From: Actinomycetota bacterium
GTDB lineage: Bacteria > Actinomycetota > Geothermincolia > Geothermincolales > RBG-13-55-18
Length of the DNA stretch: 64,000 bases
Assembly (NCBI GenBank): GCA_014360655.1
Contig: JACIXC010000007.1
Coordinates: 62,001 to 126,000 of the forward strand
Direction of reading: 5' to 3'
A program made the translations under genes and the position numbers. Below the pieces are notes generated by a model. That model was not told where the DNA came from. It saw nothing but the letters and a program-made list of their open reading frames with translations, and searched no databases. Positions 7,204 through 61,272 of this stretch are shown one piece after another (the first letter of the stretch is position 1; each line of letters starts with the position of its first letter).

Positions 7204-8502
7204 TCACGCGTCGCCGCACCGGGGGATCCCCCACGGGCTCCTCGTCACCCGCATACCCGTGTGCAGCCAGCCGTTCCTCCAGCTGCGGAAGGTGGTTTCC
7301 AGGTCGTTCCAGTAGCCGGGTGTCACGGCAGGGCCCCTGAGCGCCAGCTCCCCCTCCTCCCCCCTCCCCGCGGGGGCGCCGTCCCCGCGCACGCAGCGCA
7401 CGCGGTTGGGCGGCAGCGGCACGCAGGGGAGGGCCATGCGGCGGCGCCCGGCAAGGGAGACGCGCAGCCCCGCGATGGTGGCGTTCTCCCCGGCCGCGAA
7501 GGTCTCCACAAGCCAGTATGTGCGGCCCGCCGGTATCCGCCCTCCCGGGCGACCGCAGGGGCCCCCCTCCTCATCCCCCAGCAGCCCCGCGCTCAACCAC
7601 AATGCGGGCAGGCGGCGCCCTTCCCGCCGCGCGCACGCGTCCGCCAGCCCTTGAAGGTCGCGGGGATGCCCCGCCACCGCCGCGGGCCCTTCCTCCTCCA
7701 CCATCCCCCGCAGCAGCTCCTCCTCGCAAGAAGGGGGGAAGCGCAGGCTCATCCCCGCGGCCAGCGCCCATACCGCGGCGGCGAAAAGGGAGGGCTTCGT
7801 GAGGGGGCTGCACACCAGGCAGGCGCCCCCCGCCCGCGCGGGCAGGAGCGGGGCAAGAAGGCGCGCCGGCGACATCAGGCCCCGGTTGGTCACCATGACC
7901 GCCCTCGTCGTCCCGCCCCCATCCCTCACCCCGCAGAGCAGCACCACGTTGCTGGGCTTGAGGGTGTAGGGCAGGAAGAAGCCGCTCGCCCCCGCCATGT
8001 ACCCGTAAAGCGAGGGCTCATCACCTGCGCCCCGCGCCTCCCCGTCCAGCGTCACGAGGCGCGCCCTCTCGTTCAACGCCTCCCGCAGGCGGGGGAGACC
8101 GTCCAGCAGTTGCGCACGGACGAGCGCGACCCTGACGTCGCAGCCGCGAACGAGGCACGCCAGCTCCCCGTCGTCCGCCGCTCCCAGCGCCGGGACCACC
8201 ACGCCGCCCGCCTTTATCACCGCCGCCGCGATCAGCAACCCCTCGCCCGCGTCCGGGGTCGCGACAAGCACCCGTTCCCCCTTCACCAGGTCCACGCGCT
8301 CGATCAACGCCTCGGCCGCCAGGTTGGTGAAGCGGAGGGCGCCTTCATGGGTGACCGTCCCTCCTGGAAAATAATTACATGCAGCCGGGGAGGCGACCCT
8401 CATGGCCTCCGCGCCGTAGACGCGGGCGAGGTTCTCGAAGAGGTTGGCCATGGTGGCGTTCCTGCTCGACGCCCACGCGACCCGTTTCAGAAATCCCTTC
8501 AT
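7204..8502 (-). CDS. Adenylate-forming-enzyme-like protein, C-terminal domain absent
   Basis: About 432 residues with the layout of the large N-terminal domain of AMP-dependent acyl-CoA synthetases: an early GERVLVATPDAGEGLLIAAAV region, a core near GGTTRAVMVTNRG, and GELALRGPAVTPGYWND followed by NGWLHTG. The P-loop-like A3 motif (normally SGTTGxPKG) is degenerate, the Asp that should follow HTG is Met, and the protein stops some 14 residues later, so the swinging C-terminal domain with the catalytic Lys is missing. It is either a decayed gene or a non-catalytic relative. ATG 8502 follows GGAGCGAAGG. Codon use and GC look like the neighbours. Confidence 0.65.
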   Translation of the reverse strand: MKGFLKRVAWASSRNATMANLFENLARVYGAEAMRVASPAACNYFPGGTVTHEGALRFTNLAAEALIERVDLVKGERVLVATPDAGEGLLIAAAVIKAGGVVVPALGAADDGELACLVRGCDVRVALVRAQLLDGLPRLREALNERARLVTLDGEARGAGDEPSLYGYMAGASGFFLPYTLKPSNVVLLCGVRDGGGTTRAVMVTNRGLMSPARLLAPLLPARAGGACLVCSPLTKPSLFAAAVWALAAGMSLRFPPSCEEELLRGMVEEEGPAAVAGHPRDLQGLADACARREGRRLPALWLSAGLLGDEEGGPCGRPGGRIPAGRTYWLVETFAAGENATIAGLRVSLAGRRRMALPCVPLPPNRVRCVRGDGAPAGRGEEGELALRGPAVTPGYWNDLETTFRSWRNGWLHTGMRVTRSPWGIPRCGDA

Positions 8503-8626
8503 CCTTCGCTCCGGCCTCAAGCCGCCGGCGGGGGCGCCCGCGGCACGTCACGCACTATGATACCATCCGGGGATCACGCATTCCTGTTTCCGCCACGTAA
8601 ACATGAGGCAGCGGCCGTGCAGTAGC

Positions 8627-8717
8627 CCCGCATGTCTTCCCTGCGGGGTCATTGCGGGACCACGGGCGGAAGGCCCGCATGTCTTCCCCGCGGGATCGTT
8701 GCGGGACCACGGGCGGC
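8627..8717. repeat. 47-bp tandem repeat, two copies
   Basis: Two near-identical 47-bp units, beginning at 8627 and 8674, each containing CCCGCATGTCTTCC and TTGCGGGACCACGGGCGG-like cores (first copy CATTGCGGGACC, second CGTTGCGGGACC). They lie in the leader of the CoA transferase gene. Each unit holds GC-rich inverted segments and can fold as a hairpin. Confidence 0.75.
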
Positions 8718-8790
8718 ATGTGGTATCCTGTTCCCGTCCGGCAGTGAGGCATAACACGGTAGTCCGAGCGGGGGGAAGGAGGTCGCGGAG

Positions 8791-13378: not shown

Positions 13379-15064
13379 TTACCTGGGTACGCAGCGCATG
13401 ATCTCCTCCAGCGAGGTCACGCCTCGGGATAACTTCCTCACCGCGTTCTGCCACATGGTCCGCATCCCCTCCCGCATGGCGACCTCCGTCACTTCCCGCG
13501 GGTCTACCCGGAGGTCCATCCTGGACTTGACGGCGTCGCTCACGCCCAACACCTCGAAGACCGCCGTCCTCCCCTTGTACCCCGTATGGTTGCAATACCT
13601 GCAACCAACCGGCCGGAAGAACTCGTTCCCCTCCTCCTCGATTCCCAACCCGGCGAGGGTTTCCGCATCCGGGCGGTAGCTCTCCTTGCAGCGCGGGCAC
13701 AGCTTCCTGACCAACCTCTGGGCGATGACGAGCTTCACCACCTCCCGCACGTAGTAGGGCTCCACGCCCATGTCCAGAAGGCGCGGAAGGGCCTCCACGG
13801 CCGCGGTGGTATGTAGGGTGCTCAGCAGCAGGTGCCCGGTCATGGCGGCCTGCATGGCTATCTGCGCCGTCTCGCGGTCCCTGATCTCCCCCACCAGTAT
13901 CACGTCCGGGTCCTGACGTAGCACCGACCTGAGGATGGTGGAGAAGGTCAGGCCTATCTTGTGGTTGACGGGGATCTGGTTGATCACGCGCAACCTGTAC
14001 TCGACGGGGTCCTCGATGGTTATCACCTTGCGGGTGATATCGTTAATCTCGTTGAGCACGGCGTAGAGGGTGGTGGTCTTTCCGCTTCCCGTGGGGCCGG
14101 TGACCAGCATAAAACCGCTGGGGTCCTCCAGGGCGCGCAGTACCTTGCGCATGTCGTCGTCCTCGAAGCCGAGCTCGGCGAGGCCCACGGCGGCGTTGGA
14201 CTGGTCGAGTATCCTGAGGGTCACCGATTCCCCGTAGATGGTGGGGGCGGTGGCCACCCGGAAGTCGACGTCCTTGCCGCCGTAGCGGACGAAAAAGCGG
14301 CCGTCCTGTGGCAGCCTCCTCTCCGCGATATTCAATTGGGCGAGAACCTTGATGCGGGAGACCAGGGGGTTAAGGGCCTCCACGGGGAGTATCCTGGCCT
14401 CCATGAGCACACCGTCCAGGCGATAGCGCACGCGCACCAGGTTCTCCTCGGGTTCTATGTGCACGTCGCTGGCCCCCTCCTTTATGGCCCGCGAGAGAAG
14501 GAGGTTGGTGAGTTTTACTATGGGGCCCTCCTCCACCTGGATCTCGTCGACGCTTTCCGGTTTGTAGCGGTCCACGAACTCCAGGTGCTCCTCGCCGAAC
14601 GTGGCCATCTCCTGCTCCAGGCCGCCCTCCCTGAAGAAATAGTCGATGGCCTCCAGGATGTCTTCCTCGTCGCTCAGCACCGGTTCCAGGGTGTAACCGG
14701 AAGCGAAGGCCAGCATGTCAAGGGCGGCGGTGTCGAAGGGACAGCTGACGGCGATGGTCAGGATGTCTCCTACCAGGGTCACGGGGATAGCCACCAGGTT
14801 GCGGGCCATGTTAGCGGGGATCGACTTGACCGCCTCGGGGTCTATGAGGTCCACGGACAGCTTGACGTAGGGGATATCGACGTGCTTGCTGATGAATTCC
14901 TGCAGCTGCTCCCGGGTGGTGAACCCCTCTTTTATGAGCACTTCCTTGAGGCGCAGTCCCGTGTTCTTCTGGAGTTGCAGGGCCAGCTGGAGTTGCTCCT
15001 GGGTGATGATCCCCTTCTCCACCAGGCTGTTTCCGAGGCCGCCGTCCTGCTGCCTTCCCTCCAT
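13379..15064 (-). CDS. pilB: Type IV pilus assembly ATPase, PilB/GspE family
   Basis: 561 residues, cytoplasmic hexameric ATPase that powers pilus extension or type II secretion. The N-terminal part (about residues 1-150, GIITQEQLQLALQLQ) is an MshEN-like domain, which in relatives binds c-di-GMP. Walker A is GPTGSGKTTTLYAV, followed by the Asp box and the Walker B-like PDVILVGEIRD, then the His box. A C-terminal tetracysteine zinc site (CPRC and CRYC) is present. ATG 15064 follows GGAGGTGAAGGTG; the open frame extends upstream into the cheY gene but that part is not coding. No pilC, pilT or pilM-Q genes are in the window. Confidence 0.95.
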   Translation of the reverse strand: MEGRQQDGGLGNSLVEKGIITQEQLQLALQLQKNTGLRLKEVLIKEGFTTREQLQEFISKHVDIPYVKLSVDLIDPEAVKSIPANMARNLVAIPVTLVGDILTIAVSCPFDTAALDMLAFASGYTLEPVLSDEEDILEAIDYFFREGGLEQEMATFGEEHLEFVDRYKPESVDEIQVEEGPIVKLTNLLLSRAIKEGASDVHIEPEENLVRVRYRLDGVLMEARILPVEALNPLVSRIKVLAQLNIAERRLPQDGRFFVRYGGKDVDFRVATAPTIYGESVTLRILDQSNAAVGLAELGFEDDDMRKVLRALEDPSGFMLVTGPTGSGKTTTLYAVLNEINDITRKVITIEDPVEYRLRVINQIPVNHKIGLTFSTILRSVLRQDPDVILVGEIRDRETAQIAMQAAMTGHLLLSTLHTTAAVEALPRLLDMGVEPYYVREVVKLVIAQRLVRKLCPRCKESYRPDAETLAGLGIEEEGNEFFRPVGCRYCNHTGYKGRTAVFEVLGVSDAVKSRMDLRVDPREVTEVAMREGMRTMWQNAVRKLSRGVTSLEEIMRCVPR

Positions 15065-15116
15065 CACCTTCACCTCCGGGCCAGACGCCGAGCTCCCGAC
15101 GCCGGTGAACGCAGCC

Positions 15117-18182: not shown

Positions 18183-19283
18183 TCACCCGGTGCGCGTGAA
18201 GGGCATGACGTGCAGGGAGGTGGCCTTTATCGCCGCCGTCAGTTCCTTCCCCGGCTCGATGCCCATCTCCTCCCGGGACGCCCTCGTGACGTGGGCCACC
18301 AGGGGGAAGCCGCAGTCGAGCCTCACCCTCACCATCCCACCCATCTCCCTCACCTCCAGCACCCTGGCCCGCAAGCGGTTACGCACCGAGCCCGCCTCCG
18401 CGGCCTCGGAAAGCATGGCAACCTCCTCGGGATGCACGAGGACCTTCACCCGCGAGCCGGCAGGTAGTTCGCACACCGCCTCCAGCTCCAGGCCCGCCAC
18501 CAGGACGCGCGCCGCACCCGCATGGCACCATGTAACCTCGCCCTCCAGCAGGTTCTCCGCGCCCAGGAACTCCGCCACAACGTCGTTCACAGGCCGGGCG
18601 AAAACCTCCCCCGGCCTTCCCGCCTGGAGCAGGGTCCCCCCGATGAGCACCGCCAGCCGGTCGGCGATCTCCAGCACCTCGTGATAGTCGTGGGAGACGT
18701 AGATGGCGGTCACGCCCATCTCCCGCACCATGCTCGAGATGTACTTCCTGAGGTCCCTGCGCGAGGGCGTATCCAGGGAGGCCAGGGGCTCGTCCAGGAG
18801 CAACAGGCGCGGCCTCAGCACCATGGCCCGGCCCAGCGCCGCCTTCTGGGCCTCGCCGCCGGAGAGGGTCATGGCGTCGCGCTCTGCCAGCTCCTCGAGG
18901 TCAAGCTTGGCGAGCATCTCTTCCACCAGCGCCCGCTTCTCCTCCTTCTTTACCTTGCGCACCTTGAGGCCGTAGGCTATGTTCGCCCGCACGGTGCGCT
19001 TGAAGAGCAAGGGGTCCTGGAAGATCATCGCCATCTGCCTGGCCAGGTCCCCCCTCTCCCGCCGTTTCATGTTCGAGAGAAGCGAACCGTCCCAGAACCG
19101 GATCTCACCATTCGTTGGCCTCTCGAGCAGGTTGATGATACGGAGCAGGGTGCTCTTTCCCGAACCGTTGGGGCCCACGATAGCCAGTATCTCCCCCTCC
19201 AAGACCTCCAGGCGCTCTACTTCCAGCACCCGGCGGTCCCCGTAGAAGTGCTGCAGGCCCTGGATGGTCAGCAACGGGTTCAA
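18183..19283 (-). CDS. tupC: Tungstate/molybdate ABC transporter ATP-binding protein with TOBE domain
   Basis: 366 residues. Walker A GPNGSGKSTLLRI, Q-loop MIFQDPLLF, signature LSGGEAQKAALGRAMV, Walker B LLLLDEPLASLD and switch His VSHDYHE are all present. The last 120 residues form a MOP/TOBE-like oxyanion-sensing domain (RNRLRARVLEVREMGG), usual in molybdate, tungstate and sulfate importers. The start is read as TTG at 19281-19283, with AAGGGGG 7 nt before it; it overlaps the permease TGA (TTGA). The open frame continues upstream over the permease but is not coding there. Confidence 0.93.
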   Translation of the reverse strand: MNPLLTIQGLQHFYGDRRVLEVERLEVLEGEILAIVGPNGSGKSTLLRIINLLERPTNGEIRFWDGSLLSNMKRRERGDLARQMAMIFQDPLLFKRTVRANIAYGLKVRKVKKEEKRALVEEMLAKLDLEELAERDAMTLSGGEAQKAALGRAMVLRPRLLLLDEPLASLDTPSRRDLRKYISSMVREMGVTAIYVSHDYHEVLEIADRLAVLIGGTLLQAGRPGEVFARPVNDVVAEFLGAENLLEGEVTWCHAGAARVLVAGLELEAVCELPAGSRVKVLVHPEEVAMLSEAAEAGSVRNRLRARVLEVREMGGMVRVRLDCGFPLVAHVTRASREEMGIEPGKELTAAIKATSLHVMPFTRTG

Positions 19284-20047
19284 GCCGGAGCCCCCTTGCG
19301 ACGCCGGGAGAAAAGGCTGCGGGCCACCCTGGCCGGATGGCTCAGCAGGGTCCCCTGCTGCAGCAGGGTCATGATCCACACCAGGAGGAGGGTGATGCCC
19401 AGGAGGATGATCCCCAGGGCGATGGCCATGGTGCTGTTCCCCCTGCTCACCTCGAGGACGGTTGCGGTGGTCAGGGTGCGGGTGTAGGGCTCTCCGCCCA
19501 CCAGCAGGTTGCCCCCCACCATCATCGCCGCCCCCACCTCGGAGATGATCCCCCCGAAGCCCGCTATGACGGCGGCCAGGAGCGAGAGGCGGGTCTCCCG
19601 CAGCAGGGTGAGGATGGACCCCGCCTCGCTGGCCCCCAGGGACCTTGCCTGCATGCGCAACTTCGGGTCCACGTTCTGCAATGCGGCCATGGTGATACCG
19701 GCGATAAGGGGCATGGCCAGGACGATCTCGGACACCACTATGGCCTTGGGGGTATAGAGCCAGTTCAGGAATCCCAGGGGGCCCCTCCTCTTGAGGAACA
19801 TGTACACGAACAGGCCCACCACCACCGGAGGCAGGCCCATGCCCGCGTTGACCAGCGTTACCAGCAATTTCCTTCCACGGAAGCGGTAGACGGCGAGGGC
19901 CGAACCCAGCGGTATGCCCAGCAGCAAGCCCACCACCGTGGCGATGGCGCACACGTAGAGCGTGAAGAGGGTGATCTTCACCACGTACGGATCCAGGTGG
20001 ACGATGAGCTTGAGGGCTTCCACGAACCCACGCCAGATGTCTCCCAC
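19280..20047 (-). CDS. tupB: Tungstate ABC transporter permease
   Basis: About 255 residues, a membrane permease with roughly five to six helices (TLFTLYVCAIATVVGLLLG, LLVTLVNAGMGLPPVVVGLF and others). The EAA-type coupling loop is visible as ARSLGASEAGSILTLL. TupB belongs with TupA and TupC, as here. The start is read as GTG 20047 with AAGGAGGTGA upstream; an ATG at 20119 is open but lacks a good site. It follows tupA by 81 bp and overlaps tupC by 4 nt. Confidence 0.93.
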   Translation of the reverse strand: MGDIWRGFVEALKLIVHLDPYVVKITLFTLYVCAIATVVGLLLGIPLGSALAVYRFRGRKLLVTLVNAGMGLPPVVVGLFVYMFLKRRGPLGFLNWLYTPKAIVVSEIVLAMPLIAGITMAALQNVDPKLRMQARSLGASEAGSILTLLRETRLSLLAAVIAGFGGIISEVGAAMMVGGNLLVGGEPYTRTLTTATVLEVSRGNSTMAIALGIILLGITLLLVWIMTLLQQGTLLSHPARVARSLFSRRRKGAPA

Positions 20048-20128
20048 GCTATCGCTCACCTCCTTTAGGGGCAACGCTTTATGTGCACGGCCCGCGGTGT
20101 CCCCACCGGGCATGCGCACCGGGGACCT

Positions 20129-21007
20129 TCATCCAACTTGACGCGTAAAACCGGCCTGGAGCGCATCGGGGTAGAAGAGCGGCTCGCCGTACTCCTCAAC
20201 GCCGAATCGATTGAGAGATTCCTGTGCCCGGGCGGAGACGCAGAAGTCGTTGAAGGCCTGGGCGCCATCGTAGTTCACGTCGGGCCACTTCTCCGGGTTG
20301 ACATTCATGACATGGTAGTGGTTGAACAGCGCCGGGTCGCCCCCGCAGACGATCACCAGGTCCAGCTCGTCCTTCATACTGAGGTAGGTTCCGCGGTCGG
20401 ACAGGGTGTACGCTCTCTCCTCGGAAGCGATGCGCAGGGTATCGCCCATTCCCCTTCCGCTCTCGAGGTACCAATCGCCCCGGGGCTCGATTCCCGCTTT
20501 CTTCCAGATGCCCAACTCCTTGACGTGGGTCCCCGACCCGTCCCCGCGGGATATGAACCGCGACCCGGCGGCGGCGATTGCGGCGAACGCGTCCGCCGCG
20601 GAGGCGCTTTCCCCGGCCCCTGCGGGATCGGAAGCCGGGCCGACGATCACGAAATCGTTGTGCATGACGGCCCTGCGGTCCACCGCGTAACCCTCGGCCA
20701 CCAACTCCTCCTCCGCCGCGGGGCTGTGCACCAGCATGACGTCACACTCCCCGTTGCGGCCCATCTCCATGGCCTGCCCGCTTCCCACCGCCACCACCTT
20801 CACGGAGTAGGGGTTGTCCTCCTCGAACATGGGGATCCATTCGTCCAGCAGGCCCGAGTCCCGGGTGCTGGTGGTGGTGGCCAGGATGAGCTCGGTCCTA
20901 TTCATCGCCTTACCACCGCCATCGCCGCATCCCACCGCCAGGGCAAGCAGGAAGAAGGCGGCCATGGACAACGCCGATCTCTTCCTAAAAACTCCTTTAT
21001 CTACCAT
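20129..21007 (-). CDS. tupA: Tungstate-binding protein TupA
   Basis: 292 residues, extracytoplasmic high-affinity binding lipoprotein for tungstate. The signal segment ends in the lipobox LALAVGC. The TupA oxyanion signature ATTTSTRDSGLLD directly follows, and the second site SRGDGSGTHVKELGIWK is intact. ATG 21007 is chosen because it starts a proper signal peptide (MVDKGVFRKRSALSMAAFF); its Shine-Dalgarno is weak. Only 5 bp separate it from the upstream P-loop gene. Tungstate specificity is the family norm; molybdate is possible. Confidence 0.92.
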   Translation of the reverse strand: MVDKGVFRKRSALSMAAFFLLALAVGCGDGGGKAMNRTELILATTTSTRDSGLLDEWIPMFEEDNPYSVKVVAVGSGQAMEMGRNGECDVMLVHSPAAEEELVAEGYAVDRRAVMHNDFVIVGPASDPAGAGESASAADAFAAIAAAGSRFISRGDGSGTHVKELGIWKKAGIEPRGDWYLESGRGMGDTLRIASEERAYTLSDRGTYLSMKDELDLVIVCGGDPALFNHYHVMNVNPEKWPDVNYDGAQAFNDFCVSARAQESLNRFGVEEYGEPLFYPDALQAGFTRQVG

Positions 21008-21012
21008 ATTTC

Positions 21013-21909
21013 TTAAAAACAGCCCAGGGAGCACTGCACTATCTTGACGTTCAGCGCGTTGGCGGCCTTCCCCACCTCGAGGGGCGGCACGCCCAGCTCC
21101 TCCGCCAGCTCGAGGGCGATTGCGCATGGGATGCGCCCTTCCTCCGCCCTCTCTCTCACCGCCTGCAGGACCCTGTCGTCGACTTCCGCGGACATGAGTT
21201 CACCTCCTATCCTTCCCACCGCCCGGGAGAGTACCACCTCCCAGGCCCTTTCCCTGCCGAGTTCCGCCACCATGACCGGCTTAGCCCAGGGATTGATCTC
21301 CTTTATCTTCCTCTCGAGCTCCAGCGCCTCCCTACCGGTGATCCCCTCCCCCCCGTTCACCACCACCGTGTGGGCCTTTTTCAAGGCCTCGAAAGCCGAG
21401 GGCTTGAAGCCCGCGAAGGACGGGGTCATGACGAAGACGGCGTAATCGGGTTCCAGGAAGCGGAGGACGCTGTTGCCCTCCACGATGATCACCGGGGCCG
21501 CTAAGCGCGAGAGCGCCGCTGCGAGATCCCGCTCCAGGTCCTCCCGCGTGCTCCTCACCCAGAGCACTGGAAAGGCGCCCGCCAGGCGCAGGCGCCCCGT
21601 GTCCGTTTCGGGGCGCGCGGGTACCTCGCCTTCCTCCATGATCACCTCTCCCAGCGGCCTCTCCTCGTGCATGGAGACCTTCATGCCCGCACAGGCGCGG
21701 CAGTGTGAGGCGAGGTAGGCGGCCAGTGAGCTCTTGCCGACGTCCTTGCTGGCCCCCGATACGGTTATGATCCTGGCGGCGGAAGCGGGATCGCGCGGCG
21801 CGGGGTTGCGCGGCGACTCCACGCCCCGCGCGGGGTCCCGCGTTCCGTCCGTCCGGCGCGTGTCCGAAAAAAACCCGTCCGGAGAGGACGGGCGCGCTTC
21901 ATCGCTCAA
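21013..21909 (-). CDS. P-loop protein with winged-helix-like C-terminus, first gene of the tungstate operon
   Basis: 298 residues. After a disordered 45-residue start comes a MobB/ParA-like P-loop, ITVSGASKDVGKSSLAAYL, then a nucleotide-binding fold with IIVEGNSVLRFLEPDY and VVVNGGEGITGREAL. The last 70 residues (LQAVRERAEEGRIPCAIAL, then EVGKAANALNVKI) look like a winged helix and end in CSLGCF. I infer a role in Mo/W cofactor maturation or operon control; MobB itself joins nucleotide to molybdopterin. TTG 21909 has AAGGAG 6 nt upstream, and this site lies inside a predicted leader stem. The long upstream open frame is spurious. Confidence 0.7.
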   Translation of the reverse strand: MSDEARPSSPDGFFSDTRRTDGTRDPARGVESPRNPAPRDPASAARIITVSGASKDVGKSSLAAYLASHCRACAGMKVSMHEERPLGEVIMEEGEVPARPETDTGRLRLAGAFPVLWVRSTREDLERDLAAALSRLAAPVIIVEGNSVLRFLEPDYAVFVMTPSFAGFKPSAFEALKKAHTVVVNGGEGITGREALELERKIKEINPWAKPVMVAELGRERAWEVVLSRAVGRIGGELMSAEVDDRVLQAVRERAEEGRIPCAIALELAEELGVPPLEVGKAANALNVKIVQCSLGCF

Positions 21910-21913
21910 TAAC

Positions 21914-22008
21914 CTCTCCTTTCCAAGCACGGGAGGCGCCGGCGTTTCCACCTGCACCCTATCGGTCCGGTTCCATAGCCGAGGCCTTAGGAAACGGGAC
22001 TCGGAGAG
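21914..22008 (-). promoter_or_regulatory. Structured 5' leader of the tungstate operon, candidate Mo/W-cofactor riboswitch
   Basis: On the minus strand three nested stems can be read: CTCTCC (22008-22003) with GGAGAG (21919-21914), CGTTTCC (21996-21990) with GGAAACG (21949-21943), and inside these CCTCGG with CCGATAGG (two-base bulge). The 3' half of the outer stem contains the ribosome-binding site of the TTG start at 21909, so folding would mask translation. Position upstream of tup and moeA fits a molybdenum/tungsten cofactor sensor, but I cannot confirm the known consensus. Confidence 0.45.
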
Positions 22009-22035
22009 CCTTCGTTCAATTGTCAACGCTTTTGC

Positions 22036-22064
22036 ATTATATCCACCGCCCGCATGCGGCGCAA
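22036..22064 (-). promoter_or_regulatory. Predicted sigma-70 promoter of the tungstate operon
   Basis: Minus-strand TTGCGC, 17 nt, then a perfect TATAAT. Transcription would start near 22029 and give a leader of about 120 nt before the TTG start. The -35 matches only the TTG core. Confidence 0.5.
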
Positions 22065-22398
22065 GGCGGGTGGCGCGCACGAGGCGGCACCCACCGTGGC
22101 GGATCGCTTCCCCGCGAAAAGCGCGCGACGGAACGGCAACAGGCCCGGGAACCCCCTGGCCCCCAACGCCCGCAAGAACGCGCCGCTTCCGCAAAACCAG
22201 GTCATAACCGCGACGATGCCGACGAACCGTGAGGACCTGGCGACATCTTGATATATAATGATGTAAACGCTTGCGCGGCAGCCGGAAGCGGGTGTCGAAA
22301 CGGCGGCAGGGCGGGCGGCGGGCATCGCGCGGCGATATGTCCGTCCGGGAGTAGCATACTGAGAAAAAACCGGGTAGGGAGTTGACGGAGCCTTCGAC
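22065..22398. other. Divergent intergenic region
   Basis: No gene seen. It contains a TATAAT at 22254-22259 on the plus strand, inside the AT-rich run TTGATATATAATGATG, a possible -10 for the PAS kinase about 140 bp downstream; no good -35 is visible. Confidence 0.4.
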
Positions 22399-23838
22399 AT
22401 GGGAGAGGGAGAGGATAAGGACCGCTTCCGGGCCATCATCGAGAACCAGGCCCTGGGGATAAGCGAGGTGGACGAAGGCGAGATGTTTCTCTTCGCCAAC
22501 TCCGCGGCGCACGGGATATTCGGCGTCCCGCAGGGGACCCTGGTGGGCAGGAACCTGCGGGAGTTCACGGACGAGGAGAGCTTCCGACAGGTGCGGGAAG
22601 AGACGGAGGTGCGGAAGAAAGGCGAGAGCAGCACCTACGACCTGGCCATCATCCGCGGCGACGGCGAGAGGCGCATCATCAGGGTCACCGCCTCCCCGCG
22701 CTTCGACGCGAACGGCCGCTACCTGAGCGCCCTGGCCATCTACTCCGACGTCACGGAGCTGAAAAAGGCGGAGGAATCCCTGCGGCGCAGGGAACGCTAT
22801 TTCCGGGCCCTGCTGCACAACGCCGCGGACATGGTCACCATACTGGACGAGGACTTCCGCTTCCGCTGGGGCAGCCGCTCCACGGTCACCGTCACCGGCC
22901 ACAACGAAGCGATCTACGGCAAATCCATTCTCGACTTCATCCATCCCGACGATAGGGAGGGTTCGCGGGCGGACCTAACATTCGCCCTCCGCAATCCGAG
23001 GACCCCCGTCCACGCCGTCAGGCGCTTCCGCCACGGCGACGGGAGCTACCATTACCACGAGGCCATCGTGAACAACCTCCTCGACGACCCCGACGTACGG
23101 GGCATCATCATCAACTCCCGCGACGTCACGGAGCGCAAGCTGATGGAGGAACAGCTGGTGGCGCGCAACCGCGAGCTGGACGCCTTCGCCACCACCGTAT
23201 CCCACGACCTGCGCACGCCCCTCTCCATCATCACCGGTTACGCGCAGCTCCTGCAGTCGGACGACCTCACGGACGAGGAGAGGAAGGCCTACGTCGCGAG
23301 CATCGCCAGGGCGGCCCAACGGCTGGACGATTTCACCGCCTCGCTCCTGGTATACGCGCAGGCAGGCAAACCGGAGGGAAACATGGTCTCCCTCGATCCG
23401 GGGACCGTGATAGAGGAGGTGCTGTCGGAGCGCAAGGGCGACTTGGAAACCTCGCACATCGAGGTGGAAGTGTCAGAGGAACTGCCGCTCATAGTCGCTG
23501 ACCGCTTCAAGCTGCACCAGGTCATCTACAACCTCCTCGACAACGCCATCAAGTACACGGCGGAGGCGGCGAAACCACGCGTAGAGATCGGCGCCGCACG
23601 CCAGGGAGGCCTGGTGACCTTCTACGTGCGCGACAACGGGTGCGGCATCGACCCGCGCTTCGTAGCCGACATCTTCCTCCCCTTCAAGCGCCTGGAAGGT
23701 GGGAAGTCGCACGGGCTGGGCATCGGCCTGGCCACCGTGAAGCGGGCCGTGGAAGCCTGGGGGGGACGCGTATGGGTGAACTCCCGGCCCGGCGAGGGTT
23801 CCACCTTCTTCTTCACCGCGCCCGCCAGCGACGACTGA
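22399..23838 (+). CDS. PAS-domain sensor histidine kinase
   Basis: 479 residues, no transmembrane helix, so a cytoplasmic sensor. Two PAS domains come first (about residues 8-120 and 125-250, the second ending in the PAC-like NSRDVTERK). HisKA follows with VSHDLRTPLSIITGYAQ and then HATPase_c with the N box NLLDNAIKY, DNGCGID and GLGIGLATV. The partner response regulator is not adjacent. Its 3' end, including the stop codon, is partly duplicated 75 bp downstream. Signal unknown. Confidence 0.93.
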   Translation: MGEGEDKDRFRAIIENQALGISEVDEGEMFLFANSAAHGIFGVPQGTLVGRNLREFTDEESFRQVREETEVRKKGESSTYDLAIIRGDGERRIIRVTASPRFDANGRYLSALAIYSDVTELKKAEESLRRRERYFRALLHNAADMVTILDEDFRFRWGSRSTVTVTGHNEAIYGKSILDFIHPDDREGSRADLTFALRNPRTPVHAVRRFRHGDGSYHYHEAIVNNLLDDPDVRGIIINSRDVTERKLMEEQLVARNRELDAFATTVSHDLRTPLSIITGYAQLLQSDDLTDEERKAYVASIARAAQRLDDFTASLLVYAQAGKPEGNMVSLDPGTVIEEVLSERKGDLETSHIEVEVSEELPLIVADRFKLHQVIYNLLDNAIKYTAEAAKPRVEIGAARQGGLVTFYVRDNGCGIDPRFVADIFLPFKRLEGGKSHGLGIGLATVKRAVEAWGGRVWVNSRPGEGSTFFFTAPASDD

Positions 23839-57020: not shown

Positions 57021-57050
57021 TTGCGGGATGGGGTTAAAGGGAAGTATAAA
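57021..57050 (+). promoter_or_regulatory. Predicted promoter of the CooS gene
   Basis: TTGCGG, 18 nt, TATAAA, about 35 bp before the chosen ATG at 57082. The location excludes the upstream ATG at 57028 as start. Confidence 0.5.
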
Positions 57051-57081
57051 GAATCATTTATCTACGAAGGAGGGGATGGTC

Positions 57082-58986
57082 ATGGAAGGCGACCGCATTT
57101 CCTACCACGCATCGGTGCAACGGGCTTACCAGCGCATCAGGGAGGAAGGAATCACCAACATCTGGGACCGCTACAGGGCGCAGGGGCTGGGAGACGACCC
57201 CGACAAGCGCTGCCCCTTCTGCATGGGCGGCGTGCGCTGCGACCTGTGCTCCAACGGCCCCTGCCGCGCCGACGCCGCCAAGGACAAGCGCGGCGTGTGC
57301 GGCATCACCGCCGACGGGATGGCCATGCGCATGATGGCCCTGCGCAACGTCATGGGCGCTTCCACCTACCACTACCACACCGAGCAGACCCTGAAGACGT
57401 TGCGGGCCACGGCGCAGGGGAAAACGCCCTTCGCCATCAGCGAGCCGGGTAAGCTGCGCGACTTCGCCGCGCGCCTCGGGGTGGACGTCTCCGGCGGCGA
57501 CGCGGACGTGGCCCTGCGCCTGTGCGACTCCTGCGAGGCGGATTTCAACCGCAAGGCCGACCAGCCCAGCCTCATCGTGGAAGCCCTGGCGCCGCAGGAG
57601 CGTAAGGACCTGTGGAGGAAACTCGACATGTTCCCCGGGGGCATCTACGGGGAGATGATGCGGGTCACCAGCTCCTGCCTCACCAACGTGGACGGCTATT
57701 ACGCCAGCCTGGCGCTCAAGGCCCTGCGCATGGGCGTGGCCATGGCCTACCAGAGCCAGGTGGTCAACGAGTACTGCCAGGACGTGCTCTTCGGCATCCC
57801 CCGCCCCCATCCCATGCGCGTGAACCTGGGGGTGCTCGACCCCGATTACGTGAACGCGCTCCCCAACGGGCACGAGCCCTTCCTCGGCTTCGCCATGGTG
57901 CAGCTGGCGCGCAGGCCCGAATGGCAGGAGAAGGCCAGGGCGGCCGGGGCCAAGGGACTGCGGGTCATCGCCAGCATCGAGACCGGGCAGGAGATGATCC
58001 AGCGCTGGCAGATGGACGACGCCTTCCACGGCTTCACCGGGAACTGGATCATGCAGGAGGCCGTGCTCTCCTCCGGCTGCGTGGACCTCTTCGCGGCGGA
58101 CATGAACTGTTCCATGCCCATCGACCCCATCTACGCCGAGCGCTACCGCTTCAGGCTCGTCCCGGTGAGCGACCTGGTAGCCTTCGAGGGCATCACCGAG
58201 CGCCTGGACTACGAGCCCGAGAAGGCGGAGGAGCAGGCCGCCCGCCTGCTGGAGATGGCCATCGCCAACTTCGCCGAACGCCGCCGCGCGGTGGAACCCA
58301 TCACCGGTCAACCCGTGGGGGAAGCGGTGGTGGGCTTCTCCACCGAGAGCATCCTGGAGGCCCTGGGCGGCAGCCTGGATCCCCTCCTCGAGGCGCTGAA
58401 GGCGGGCGCCATACGGGGAGTGGCCGGCCTGGTCTCCTGCACCTCCCTGCGGGACAGCGGCCAGGACGTGCACAGCGTGGCCGTGGCCAGGGAGCTGATC
58501 AAGCGGGATATCCTCATCCTCTCCATGGGATGCGGCAACGCGGCCATGCAGGTCTCCGGCCTGTGCTCCCCGCAGGCGGCGGAGCTGGCTGGGCCCGGCC
58601 TGCGGGGACTGTGCGAAAAACTGGGGGTGCCCCCCGTGCTCAGCTACGGGACCTGCACCGACACCGGCCGCATCGCCGACCTCCTGGCGGCGGTCTCCGG
58701 CGCCCTGGGAGGGATTCCCATCCCCGACCTCCCCGTGGTCGCCGCCGCCCCGGAATACATGGAGCAGAAGGCCACCATCGACGCCATCTTCGCCCTGGCC
58801 CTGGGGCTCTACACCTACGTGAACCCGGTGCCCACGGTGACCGGGGCGCCGAACCTGGTGGAGCTCCTCACGCAGGGGTGCCGCGAGCTGACCGGCGGGC
58901 AGCTCCACCTGGAAAAGGACCCCGCGGAAGCGGCTGAGAACATGCTGGCCCACATCGAGGAGAGGCGGAATGCGCTGGGCATCTGA
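57082..58986 (+). CDS. Ni-Fe carbon monoxide dehydrogenase (CooS) homolog with altered C-cluster ligands
   Basis: 634 residues, the CooS length. D-cluster site CPFC (Cys44, Cys47; Cx2C type) and B-cluster Cys53, 56, 61 and 73 are present. For the C-cluster, His264 (NGHEP), Cys343 (MNCSMP; Cys333 is close), Cys453, Cys484 and Cys525 (YGTCTDTGR) can be placed. The Cys-Cys of the CCTGNE motif is replaced by Ile299-Glu300 (ASIETGQE). Lys563 (EQKATIDA), matching the proton-relay Lys, is kept. It may therefore not be a standard CO oxidiser. ATG 57082 follows AAGGAGG. No cooC, cooF or acetyl-CoA synthase gene is adjacent. Confidence 0.88.
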   Translation: MEGDRISYHASVQRAYQRIREEGITNIWDRYRAQGLGDDPDKRCPFCMGGVRCDLCSNGPCRADAAKDKRGVCGITADGMAMRMMALRNVMGASTYHYHTEQTLKTLRATAQGKTPFAISEPGKLRDFAARLGVDVSGGDADVALRLCDSCEADFNRKADQPSLIVEALAPQERKDLWRKLDMFPGGIYGEMMRVTSSCLTNVDGYYASLALKALRMGVAMAYQSQVVNEYCQDVLFGIPRPHPMRVNLGVLDPDYVNALPNGHEPFLGFAMVQLARRPEWQEKARAAGAKGLRVIASIETGQEMIQRWQMDDAFHGFTGNWIMQEAVLSSGCVDLFAADMNCSMPIDPIYAERYRFRLVPVSDLVAFEGITERLDYEPEKAEEQAARLLEMAIANFAERRRAVEPITGQPVGEAVVGFSTESILEALGGSLDPLLEALKAGAIRGVAGLVSCTSLRDSGQDVHSVAVARELIKRDILILSMGCGNAAMQVSGLCSPQAAELAGPGLRGLCEKLGVPPVLSYGTCTDTGRIADLLAAVSGALGGIPIPDLPVVAAAPEYMEQKATIDAIFALALGLYTYVNPVPTVTGAPNLVELLTQGCRELTGGQLHLEKDPAEAAENMLAHIEERRNALGI

Positions 58987-59306
58987 AAGCCGTGTCCGAA
59001 ACCGTTCCCGAAAAGGGGCCCGGAGGCGGCCCGGAGGCGGTATGTGCCGGACGGCACGCAGGCGAGGGGCCGGCCCGCCGGCTTCCCCCAGAGGTCGCTT
59101 CACACACGTTATCCGGCCATGACGCCGCATACCGCGTCGGGCAAACCTGCGCCCGGGAAGAAGAGCCGGCTCGCCGCGCGCGCCCCGAGGGGCTGACGCC
59201 TCGTGAAGTTATAATATACTCGTATCCGCGCCATACCGCAGACCAGAAGGGTCCGGTATTGCGACGGTGAGGAGCCGCGGGGAACGGCCGTAGGGGGAGG
59301 AGGGTT
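58987..59306. other. Intergenic region with -10 box
   Basis: No gene seen. TATAAT at 59210-59215 is a probable -10 for the aldo/keto reductase; the -35 is unclear. The left half is GC-rich with CGGAGGCGGCCCGGAGGCGG-like repeats. Confidence 0.5.
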
Positions 59307-60470
59307 ATGCATTACCGCGCATTCGGGACGAGCGGCTGGGAGGTCTCCATCCTCGGCTTCGGCTGCATGCGCTTTCCCACCCTGGACGGTATCCCCATCA
59401 GCGAGAACGTCAAGGTGGAGGAAGCGGAGGCCATGGTGCACCATGCCATCGAAAGCGGCATCAACTACCTGGACACCGCCTACACCTACCACAACGGGAG
59501 GAGCGAGGCCCTGCTCGGGGAGTTCCTGCGCGGCGGATACCGCGAGAAGGTGCGGCTGGCCACCAAGTGCCCGGTATGGATGGTGGAGAGGGGCGAGGAT
59601 TTCGACCGCTTCCTCTCCGAGCAACTGCGGAGGCTGCGCACGGAGCACATAGATTACTACCTCTTCCACGGCCTCAACGCGAGAAGGTGGGAGGCCATAC
59701 GGGAGCTCGGGCTGCTCGCCAGGGCGGAGGCCGCGGCGAAGGACGGGCGCATAGGCGGCATCGGCTTCTCCTTCCACGACAACTTCGCCTCCTTCAAGGA
59801 GATCGTCGACGGCTACGACAACTGGGCCCTCTGCCAGATCCAGTACAACTACATGGACACCGAGAACCAGGCCGGCACGCGGGGCCTGCGGTACGCGGCC
59901 GAGAAGGGCCTGGCGGTGGCGGTCATGGAGCCGCTGCTGGGCGGCAACCTGGCCCGCCCCCCGCGCGAGATCGCCGAGATCTTCGATGGCTTCCCGGTGC
60001 GGCGCTCCCCCGCGGAGTGGGCGCTGCTCTGGGTCTGGGAGCAGCCGGGGATCTCCGTGGTGCTGAGCGGCATGAGCAGCATGGAGCAACTCAAGGACAA
60101 CCTACGCGTCGCGGAGCTCTCCGCCACCCACGTCCTGGACGACGAGGAGCTCGCGCTGCTGGAAAGGGTGCGCCGGAGGTTCACGGAGCGGGCGGCCATC
60201 CCCTGCACGTCCTGCGGCTACTGCCTGCCCTGCCCCGGCGGCGTCAACATCCCCGAGAACTTCACCCTCTACAACGACCTGGTAATGTACGACGACCAGC
60301 TCACGCCCCGCTTCCGCTACCATCGCTTCCTGGAGGAGAAGGAAAGGGCCTCCGCCTGCACGCGGTGCGGCGAGTGCGAGGAGAAATGCCCCCAGGGGGT
60401 GAAGGTGAGCGAGCTCATGCCCGAGGTGCACGCCGTGCTGGGCGAGGGACGACCTCCCTCCCGGGCGTGA
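59307..60470 (+). CDS. Aldo/keto reductase with C-terminal 4Fe-4S ferredoxin domain
   Basis: 387 residues. Residues 1-285 form the AKR barrel: GFGCMRFPT, DTAYTYHNGRSE (catalytic Asp and Tyr), ATKCPVW (Lys) and YYLFHGL (His), with the SGMSSMEQLKDN cofactor region. Residues 295-375 add two Cys clusters, CTSCGYCLPCPGGVNIP and CTRCGECEEKCPQGV, typical of anaerobic AKR-ferredoxin proteins. This implies electron exchange between NAD(P)H and an iron-sulfur partner. Start ATG 59307 follows GGGGGAGGAGGGTT. Neighbours are CooS and the redoxin selenoprotein, suggesting a redox group. Confidence 0.93.
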   Translation: MHYRAFGTSGWEVSILGFGCMRFPTLDGIPISENVKVEEAEAMVHHAIESGINYLDTAYTYHNGRSEALLGEFLRGGYREKVRLATKCPVWMVERGEDFDRFLSEQLRRLRTEHIDYYLFHGLNARRWEAIRELGLLARAEAAAKDGRIGGIGFSFHDNFASFKEIVDGYDNWALCQIQYNYMDTENQAGTRGLRYAAEKGLAVAVMEPLLGGNLARPPREIAEIFDGFPVRRSPAEWALLWVWEQPGISVVLSGMSSMEQLKDNLRVAELSATHVLDDEELALLERVRRRFTERAAIPCTSCGYCLPCPGGVNIPENFTLYNDLVMYDDQLTPRFRYHRFLEEKERASACTRCGECEEKCPQGVKVSELMPEVHAVLGEGRPPSRA

Positions 60471-60496
60471 GAAGCGGGAAAAGAGGGCTCCTTTCC

Positions 60497-60771
60497 CGGC
60501 GTGTTCCCGGGTATATTTCCCGGTGTATTTCCCGGTGTATTTCCCTGTGTGCTTCCCGGTGCATTTCCCGGTGTATTATCCGGTATGTTCCCCGGGTGTT
60601 CCCAAGTTGTTTCCCGGTGTGTTCCCAGATTGTTCCATGGTTGTTTCCCGGTGCGTTCACCGGGTGTTCCGCGGTGTGTTTTCCGGGGTATCTTCCGGGG
60701 TATTCCCTGGTCGTTCCCCGTTTGTTTCCCGGTTTTTCCCGGTGTATTCCCCGGTGTATACTGGGAAGGGA
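60497..60771. repeat. Degenerate 11-12-bp tandem array
   Basis: More than 20 units of the type TTTCCCGGTGTA, varying to TTCCCAGATTG and TTTTCCGGGGTA. It fills the entire gap between the aldo/keto reductase and the redoxin gene and ends about 19 nt before the redoxin start, so it forms that gene's leader. Confidence 0.88.
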
Positions 60772-60789
60772 AGCGAGGGAGGTGAGGCG

Positions 60790-61272
60790 ATGTCCAGGGA
60801 GAGCACGGTCCTCAAGGTGGGCGACCGGGCCCCCGAATTCCTGTTGCCGGACGCGCTGAGCGGCGAGGAGGTTTCGCTGTCGTCGCTTCTGGGCAGGCCC
60901 CTGATGGTCTACTTCGGCCGCGGCACCTGGTGACCGCACTGCCGGGAGTATATGGGTCATATACAGGAACTGCAAAGCGAACTGGAGAAGCGCGGCGCCC
61001 GTGCAGTGGTCATCCTGGCCCAGAAGCGCAAAGCCATAAGGGAGTACCTGGAGGATAACCCCTACCCCTATCCCGTGCTCGCGGACGAGAGGCGGCAGGC
61101 GTCCAAGGATTACGGGGTCTACGTCAAGGTGAACTTCGAGTCCATCAACATCGCCAGGCCGTCGACATTCATCCTCGACGGGGAGGGGACCATAAAATAC
61201 ATCTTCGTCGCCAGTATCCAGACGGAGTACCCCCCGGACGGGGACATCCTTGCCGCCCTGGAGACGCCCTGA
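60790..61272 (+). CDS. Redoxin (AhpC/TSA-like) selenoprotein with in-frame TGA (Sec48)
   Basis: 160 residues if TGA 60931-60933 is read as selenocysteine. Upstream part: VLKVGDRAPEFLLPDALSGE and PLMVYFGRGTW; then U48-P-H-C51; downstream the thioredoxin fold continues in the same frame without a break (ARAVVILAQKRKAIREYL, PYPVLADERRQASKDYGV, RPSTFILDGEGTIKYIFVA). U-x-x-C replaces the CxxC redox site. A SECIS-like hairpin starts 14 nt after the TGA. ATG 60790 has GGGAGGTGAGGCG. Likely a thiol peroxidase or disulfide reductase in oxidant defence. A nonsense mutation is the alternative, but it would have to hit exactly the redox Cys. Confidence 0.85.
60934..60964 (+). promoter_or_regulatory. Bacterial SECIS-like element
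   Basis: GTATATG (60948-60954), loop GGT (60955-60957), CATATAC (60958-60964): a perfect 7-bp stem whose loop begins with GG, 14 nt after the TGA. Bacterial SelB-binding elements lie directly 3' of the UGA with G in a small apical loop at about this distance. Confidence 0.75.

Follow-up and report, generated by a model that had tools for sequence, protein, structure and literature searches.

Prx-like thiol:disulfide oxidoreductase selenoproteins, which belong to the Pfam family PF00578 and carry UxxC or UxxU motifs, have been catalogued in bacteria (PMC13188914, Table 1; PMC9312934), and the Prx-like UXXC proteins have been set apart from the TxxU peroxiredoxins (PMC1088965). The family is rated as predicted and not as experimentally verified (PMC13188914). 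The window analyzed here, a 64,000-nucleotide stretch from an actinomycetotal genome, harbors a redoxin gene that resembles this family in its PF00578 domain, in the placement of selenocysteine (Sec) in a thioredoxin-like UxxC motif, and in a bacterial SECIS located just past the UGA. It differs in belonging to a GTW-U-PHC clade of Ca. Geothermincolia, some members of which keep U without a second Cys. The literature searched yielded neither this clade nor any selenoprotein from Geothermincolia. By domain and motif alone, the protein can also be likened to the Redoxin family selenoprotein (PF08534, UxxC; PMC13188914, Table 1). The Sec peroxiredoxins (TxxU; PMC13188914) share the AhpC-TSA fold, but their Sec position lies three residues apart from the one observed here, where no PxxxTxxU motif occurs. 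The fold is likewise common to PrxQ/Bcp proteins (2ywn, 2cx3, 3hjp, and 5epf) and ResA (3c71), although those are Cys enzymes. We consider it about 97% probable that the locus is a genuine selenoprotein gene, in which the UGA at codon 48 is read as Sec by means of a hairpin and SelB, yielding a 160-residue redoxin of the AhpC/TSA fold. Such a protein leaves the understanding of selenoproteins unchanged; it adds to an established type from a class that has received little study.

Gene Structure and Reading Frame

The Prx-like redoxin selenoprotein gene (160 amino acids, AhpC-TSA/Redoxin fold) spans positions 60790–61272 of the forward strand, on which its Shine–Dalgarno sequence, codons, and hairpin also lie. 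It opens with an ATG at 60790, preceded by a Shine–Dalgarno sequence read directly in the DNA and rated strong (GGGAGGTG, 60777–60784). The same start, 47 residues ahead of the Sec, is common to the homologs, nearly all of which conserve a purine-rich SD-like sequence before it. The only in-frame TGA (60931–60933) corresponds to residue 48, inside YFGRGTW-U-PHC, and a TGC codon at 60940–60942 specifies Cys51, the second residue of the UxxC motif, as placed by alignment and by profile alignment to 2ywn and 2cx3. Another 112 codons separate this TGA from the terminal TGA (61270–61272), which we take as the true stop codon, as the homologs end within about ten codons with TAA, TAG, or TGA. The in-frame UGA thus occupies a conserved Cys/Sec redox position, at which TGA recurs across 19 genomes (22 loci) and the Cys homologs have TGT or TGC.

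A perfect 7-bp hairpin follows the codon at 60948–60964, with the 5′ arm GTATATG (60948–60954), the loop GGT (60955–60957), and the 3′ arm CATATAC (60958–60964); the stem begins 14 nt past the TGA and the loop lies 21 nt after it. An earlier note, prepared from the sequence alone, had claimed both a single TGA where the first Cys of a CxxC site belongs (GTW-U-PHC) and this hairpin with its GGT loop and spacing, and rereading the open reading frame and the pairing reproduced both descriptions. The hairpin represents a bacterial SECIS apical stem, with a small loop bearing a G, for which an Rfam search of the stretch returned no matching family. Perfect stems of at least 7 bp, located 16–37 nt downstream and closed by a 3–8-nt loop carrying G within its first two positions, arose by chance at 0.6% of the sites sampled throughout the window; of its about 1,400 TGA trinucleotides, 10 were followed by such a stem. 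Taken alone, the hairpin is weak evidence, suggestive and not decisive.

Conservation of the TGA Codon and the SECIS Hairpin

The comparison set comprised 31 genomes from Ca. Geothermincolia, the actinomycetotal class to which the relatives named Ca. Geothermincola belong. The redoxin gene was found in 20 of them and carried TGA at the active site in 19, totaling 22 loci when the paralogs L089–L091 are counted, with TGA-carrying homologs reaching down to 33% identity. This conservation excludes a sequencing error, and the replacement of the codon at 60931–60933 by TGC or TGT, which the earlier note had named as refuting its reading, did not occur. In the 22 loci, the 7-bp stem was fully paired (154 of 154 pair cells) and located at an identical distance from the TGA, and the first loop base was invariably G. 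Three stem versions were observed, GTATATG/CATATAC (n = 16), GTACATG/CATGTAC (n = 4), and GTATGTG/CACATAC (n = 2), revealing compensatory changes at two stem pairs with a covariation score reached by none of 500 shuffles; five of the seven pairs are invariant, and the covariation signal comes from the other two pairs and from few events. We regard the joint conservation of hairpin and TGA across these aligned loci as decisive. Two genomes (G020 and G006) also conserve a second, divergent paralog (L090 and L091, respectively; 33–39% identical), in which the Sec position and the SECIS hairpin are unchanged.

The stem was broken in the Cys homologs. The sole class genome with TGT at this position (G015, identical in sequence to Ca. 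Geothermincola secundus, L032) has the hairpin GTATATG GCC CATCTGC, in which the entire 5′ arm is kept and six of seven positions are pairable; it resembles a SECIS left behind when Sec gave way to Cys. The Bipolaricaulota homologs (L033–L035) carry TGC or TGT and are 56–59% identical, and the G015 and Bipolaricaulota proteins formed a single clade (support 96/96) in a tree that does not fix the root, a grouping consistent with one Sec/Cys switch, in either direction, plus lateral transfer. One hairpin conserved across 22 loci, together with a Cys-converted relative bearing a broken remnant, makes this a clean SECIS set. Additionally, the dN/dS ratios against three relatives were similar past the TGA (0.11–0.23) and before it (0.14–0.26), although these are rough values, synonymous sites being close to saturation in two of the three comparisons; by these estimates purifying selection acts on the codons past the TGA.

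Selenocysteine Machinery in the Genome and the Class

The genome of the window (G000; 2.97 Mb, 99.96% complete) encodes the full set of selA, selB, selC, and selD. On its contig C5 we found a tRNA-Sec with anticodon UCA (22650–22741, 81.8 bits, also predicted by ARAGORN), selB (20562–22445, TIGR00475, 376 bits), selA (19135–20514, 592 bits), and selD (14179–15102, 377 bits), with selA, selB, and selC (the tRNA-Sec gene) adjoining each other. The selD gene also contains an in-frame TGA, at its Sec/Cys position, with a short GGA-looped stem downstream. The earlier note had predicted that the organism decodes Sec and had proposed a genome search for selA, selB, selD, and tRNA-Sec; all four are present, so the lack of selB or tRNA-Sec that it had named as refuting its reading did not occur.

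Both selB and tRNA-Sec scored above the cut-off in all 19 genomes with TGA, and neither was found in G015, the Cys genome, which is 82% complete, making their absence probable and not certain. With selB detected in 27 of 31 genomes, Sec decoding is indicated as widespread in Ca. Geothermincolia. The redoxin is not universal there, as several class genomes gave no match to it despite having selB and tRNA-Sec. The selenoprotein reading put forward in the earlier note is thus supported by the conserved TGA, the SECIS, the machinery, and their co-occurrence, all of which, like the gene and its fold, were observed computationally.

A second tRNA-Cys gene was detected in G000 outside the window (C5:58369–58457; L002:1501–1589, minus strand), with 89 nt and a score above the tRNA-Sec gathering threshold; a canonical 74-nt tRNA-Cys is encoded elsewhere in the genome. 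Genes of this kind, which also occur in eight other class genomes (G014, G017, G020, G024, G026, G027, G029, and G030), have a GCA anticodon, U73, an encoded CCA, a length of 88–90 nt, a long variable arm, and, in the predicted fold, a 13-bp acceptor/T branch. They resemble the selC* tRNA-Cys, listed in a review for Firmicutes, Thermodesulfobacteria, Nitrospirae, and Proteobacteria (PMC7609411), although the T-stem bulge reported for selC* was not seen here. From these traits, the second tRNA-Cys looks like a selC* tRNA-Cys in a phylum absent from that list.

Fold and Active Site

The protein matched AhpC-TSA (PF00578) with an E-value of 2.7e-29 and 102.1 bits, against a curated cut-off of 26, as well as Redoxin (PF08534; E = 9.1e-25), and the 12 weak NCBIfam matches to the redoxin all fell short of their cut-offs. 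In the AlphaFold model (pLDDT 93, pTM 0.90), the motif is located at the start of helix 49–67. The closest PDB folds were BcpB, Bcp4, PrxQ, and AhpE, with ResA slightly more distant, and TM-scores to the query ranged from 0.67 to 0.87 for 2ywn, 2cx3, 3hjp, 5epf, and 3c71. These neighbors included a ResA variant whose motif, CPHC, is the Cys counterpart of U-P-H-C. ResA is a membrane-anchored extracytoplasmic protein, whereas no signal sequence was evident in the redoxin, which is probably cytosolic.

Profile alignment to 2ywn and 2cx3 placed the peroxidatic Cys of PrxQ (FTQVC in 2ywn) at C51 and its Thr at Sec48; Sec48 therefore sits at the thioredoxin-type position, while the PrxQ nucleophile falls at that of C51. 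The earlier note had correctly described the TGA as standing for the first Cys of a CxxC site, a description now refined in that the peroxidatic Cys of PrxQ-type proteins corresponds to C51 and not to Sec48. With a UxxC motif (U48-P-H-C51) present and PxxxTxxU absent, we classify the predicted protein as a Prx-like thiol:disulfide oxidoreductase (UxxC)-type selenoprotein and not as a TxxU peroxiredoxin. Two homologs (L087 and L089) keep the U and have W (PNW) or A (PNA) in place of C51, which suggests that Sec is the indispensable residue.

In the mechanism we propose, the hairpin past the codon-48 UGA would recruit SelB carrying Sec-tRNA-Sec(UCA), and Sec would be inserted at that codon in vivo. 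Nucleophilic attack would most likely come from the selenol of Sec48, at the thioredoxin/ResA-type position on the N-terminus of helix 49–67. The selenenyl intermediate would, in most members, be resolved by Cys51 as an Se–S bond and this bond reduced in turn by a thioredoxin-like donor; the resulting activity may be that of a thiol:disulfide oxidoreductase or of a thiol peroxidase. A bolder proposal, which we hold to be improbable, is that these proteins form a distinct PrxQ-fold selenoenzyme clade in which Sec alone is catalytic at the thioredoxin position and the second Cys is dispensable, within a class whose Sec system is joined by a tRNA-Sec-mimicking tRNA-Cys, which might also interact with the SelB of that system.

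Alternative Explanations

The TGA might be a nonsense mutation in a CxxC redoxin, making the locus a pseudogene or the product of a sequencing error. At 60790–61272, standard gene-finding software would report two fragments, and automatic annotation would probably split the gene; moreover, a decayed copy of the redoxin does exist 4 kb further on. This explanation is nevertheless refuted by the recurrence of the identical TGA across 19 genomes (22 loci), together with the purifying selection past it and the conserved SECIS hairpin, and we give it practically no credence. Scarcely more credible is a general reassignment or suppression of UGA, by which the codon would be read as Trp, as Gly, or, through a suppressor tRNA, as Cys. 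The tRNA-Sec-like tRNA-Cys could be taken to favor it, but its anticodon is GCA. UGA is, in addition, the terminal stop of the redoxin gene itself in 11 of the 22 TGA loci, so that the recoding is context-dependent and the genetic code unchanged, and the occurrence of the TGA tracks a dedicated tRNA-Sec(UCA) with the full SelA/B/D set. On these grounds reassignment was rejected.

A closer contender, though still an unlikely one, accepts the Sec and differs on its role, making the protein a true TxxU-type Sec peroxiredoxin, in whose Prx active site Sec would act as the peroxidatic residue. PrxQ/Bcp and AhpE are indeed the best fold and profile matches, and peroxidase activity is plausible for a selenol in an AhpC-TSA fold. 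The alignment of the Prx peroxidatic Cys with C51, three residues past Sec48, led us to reject the TxxU label, against which the missing PxxxTxxC motif and the homologs with no Cys at the C51 position (L087 and L089) also stand.

Genomic Neighborhood and Further Candidates

Genes for a CooS-type carbon monoxide dehydrogenase and a 4Fe-4S aldo/keto reductase, named from their translations, lie upstream of the redoxin at 57028–60470. Only within the genus is the redoxin flanked by the genes for CooS, the aldo/keto reductase, and ABC transporters, although the aldo/keto reductase gene also precedes it in two genomes from a different genus, and the search of this gene context for a conserved operon partner revealed no readable functional partner. 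A degenerate 12-bp tandem repeat of about 23 TTTCCCGGTGTG-like units (60492–60757) separates the aldo/keto reductase and redoxin genes, which in a relative of the same genus (L029) are only about 60 nt apart. The decayed redoxin copy, partial and frame-broken, is located about 4 kb downstream, beyond the window (G000 C7:127478–127756; L027, about 8479–8757).

Two other candidates were observed outside the set of 22 loci. One, from the same class (L094; G006:C146:11511–11921), is an AhpC-type protein whose TGA occupies the actual peroxidatic site (FTFV-U), a candidate TxxU peroxiredoxin. The other (L039:3001–3510), a remote redoxin from a Deltaproteobacteria MAG, carries its in-frame TGA within FYRGKW-U-PYC and is a candidate UxxC selenoprotein.
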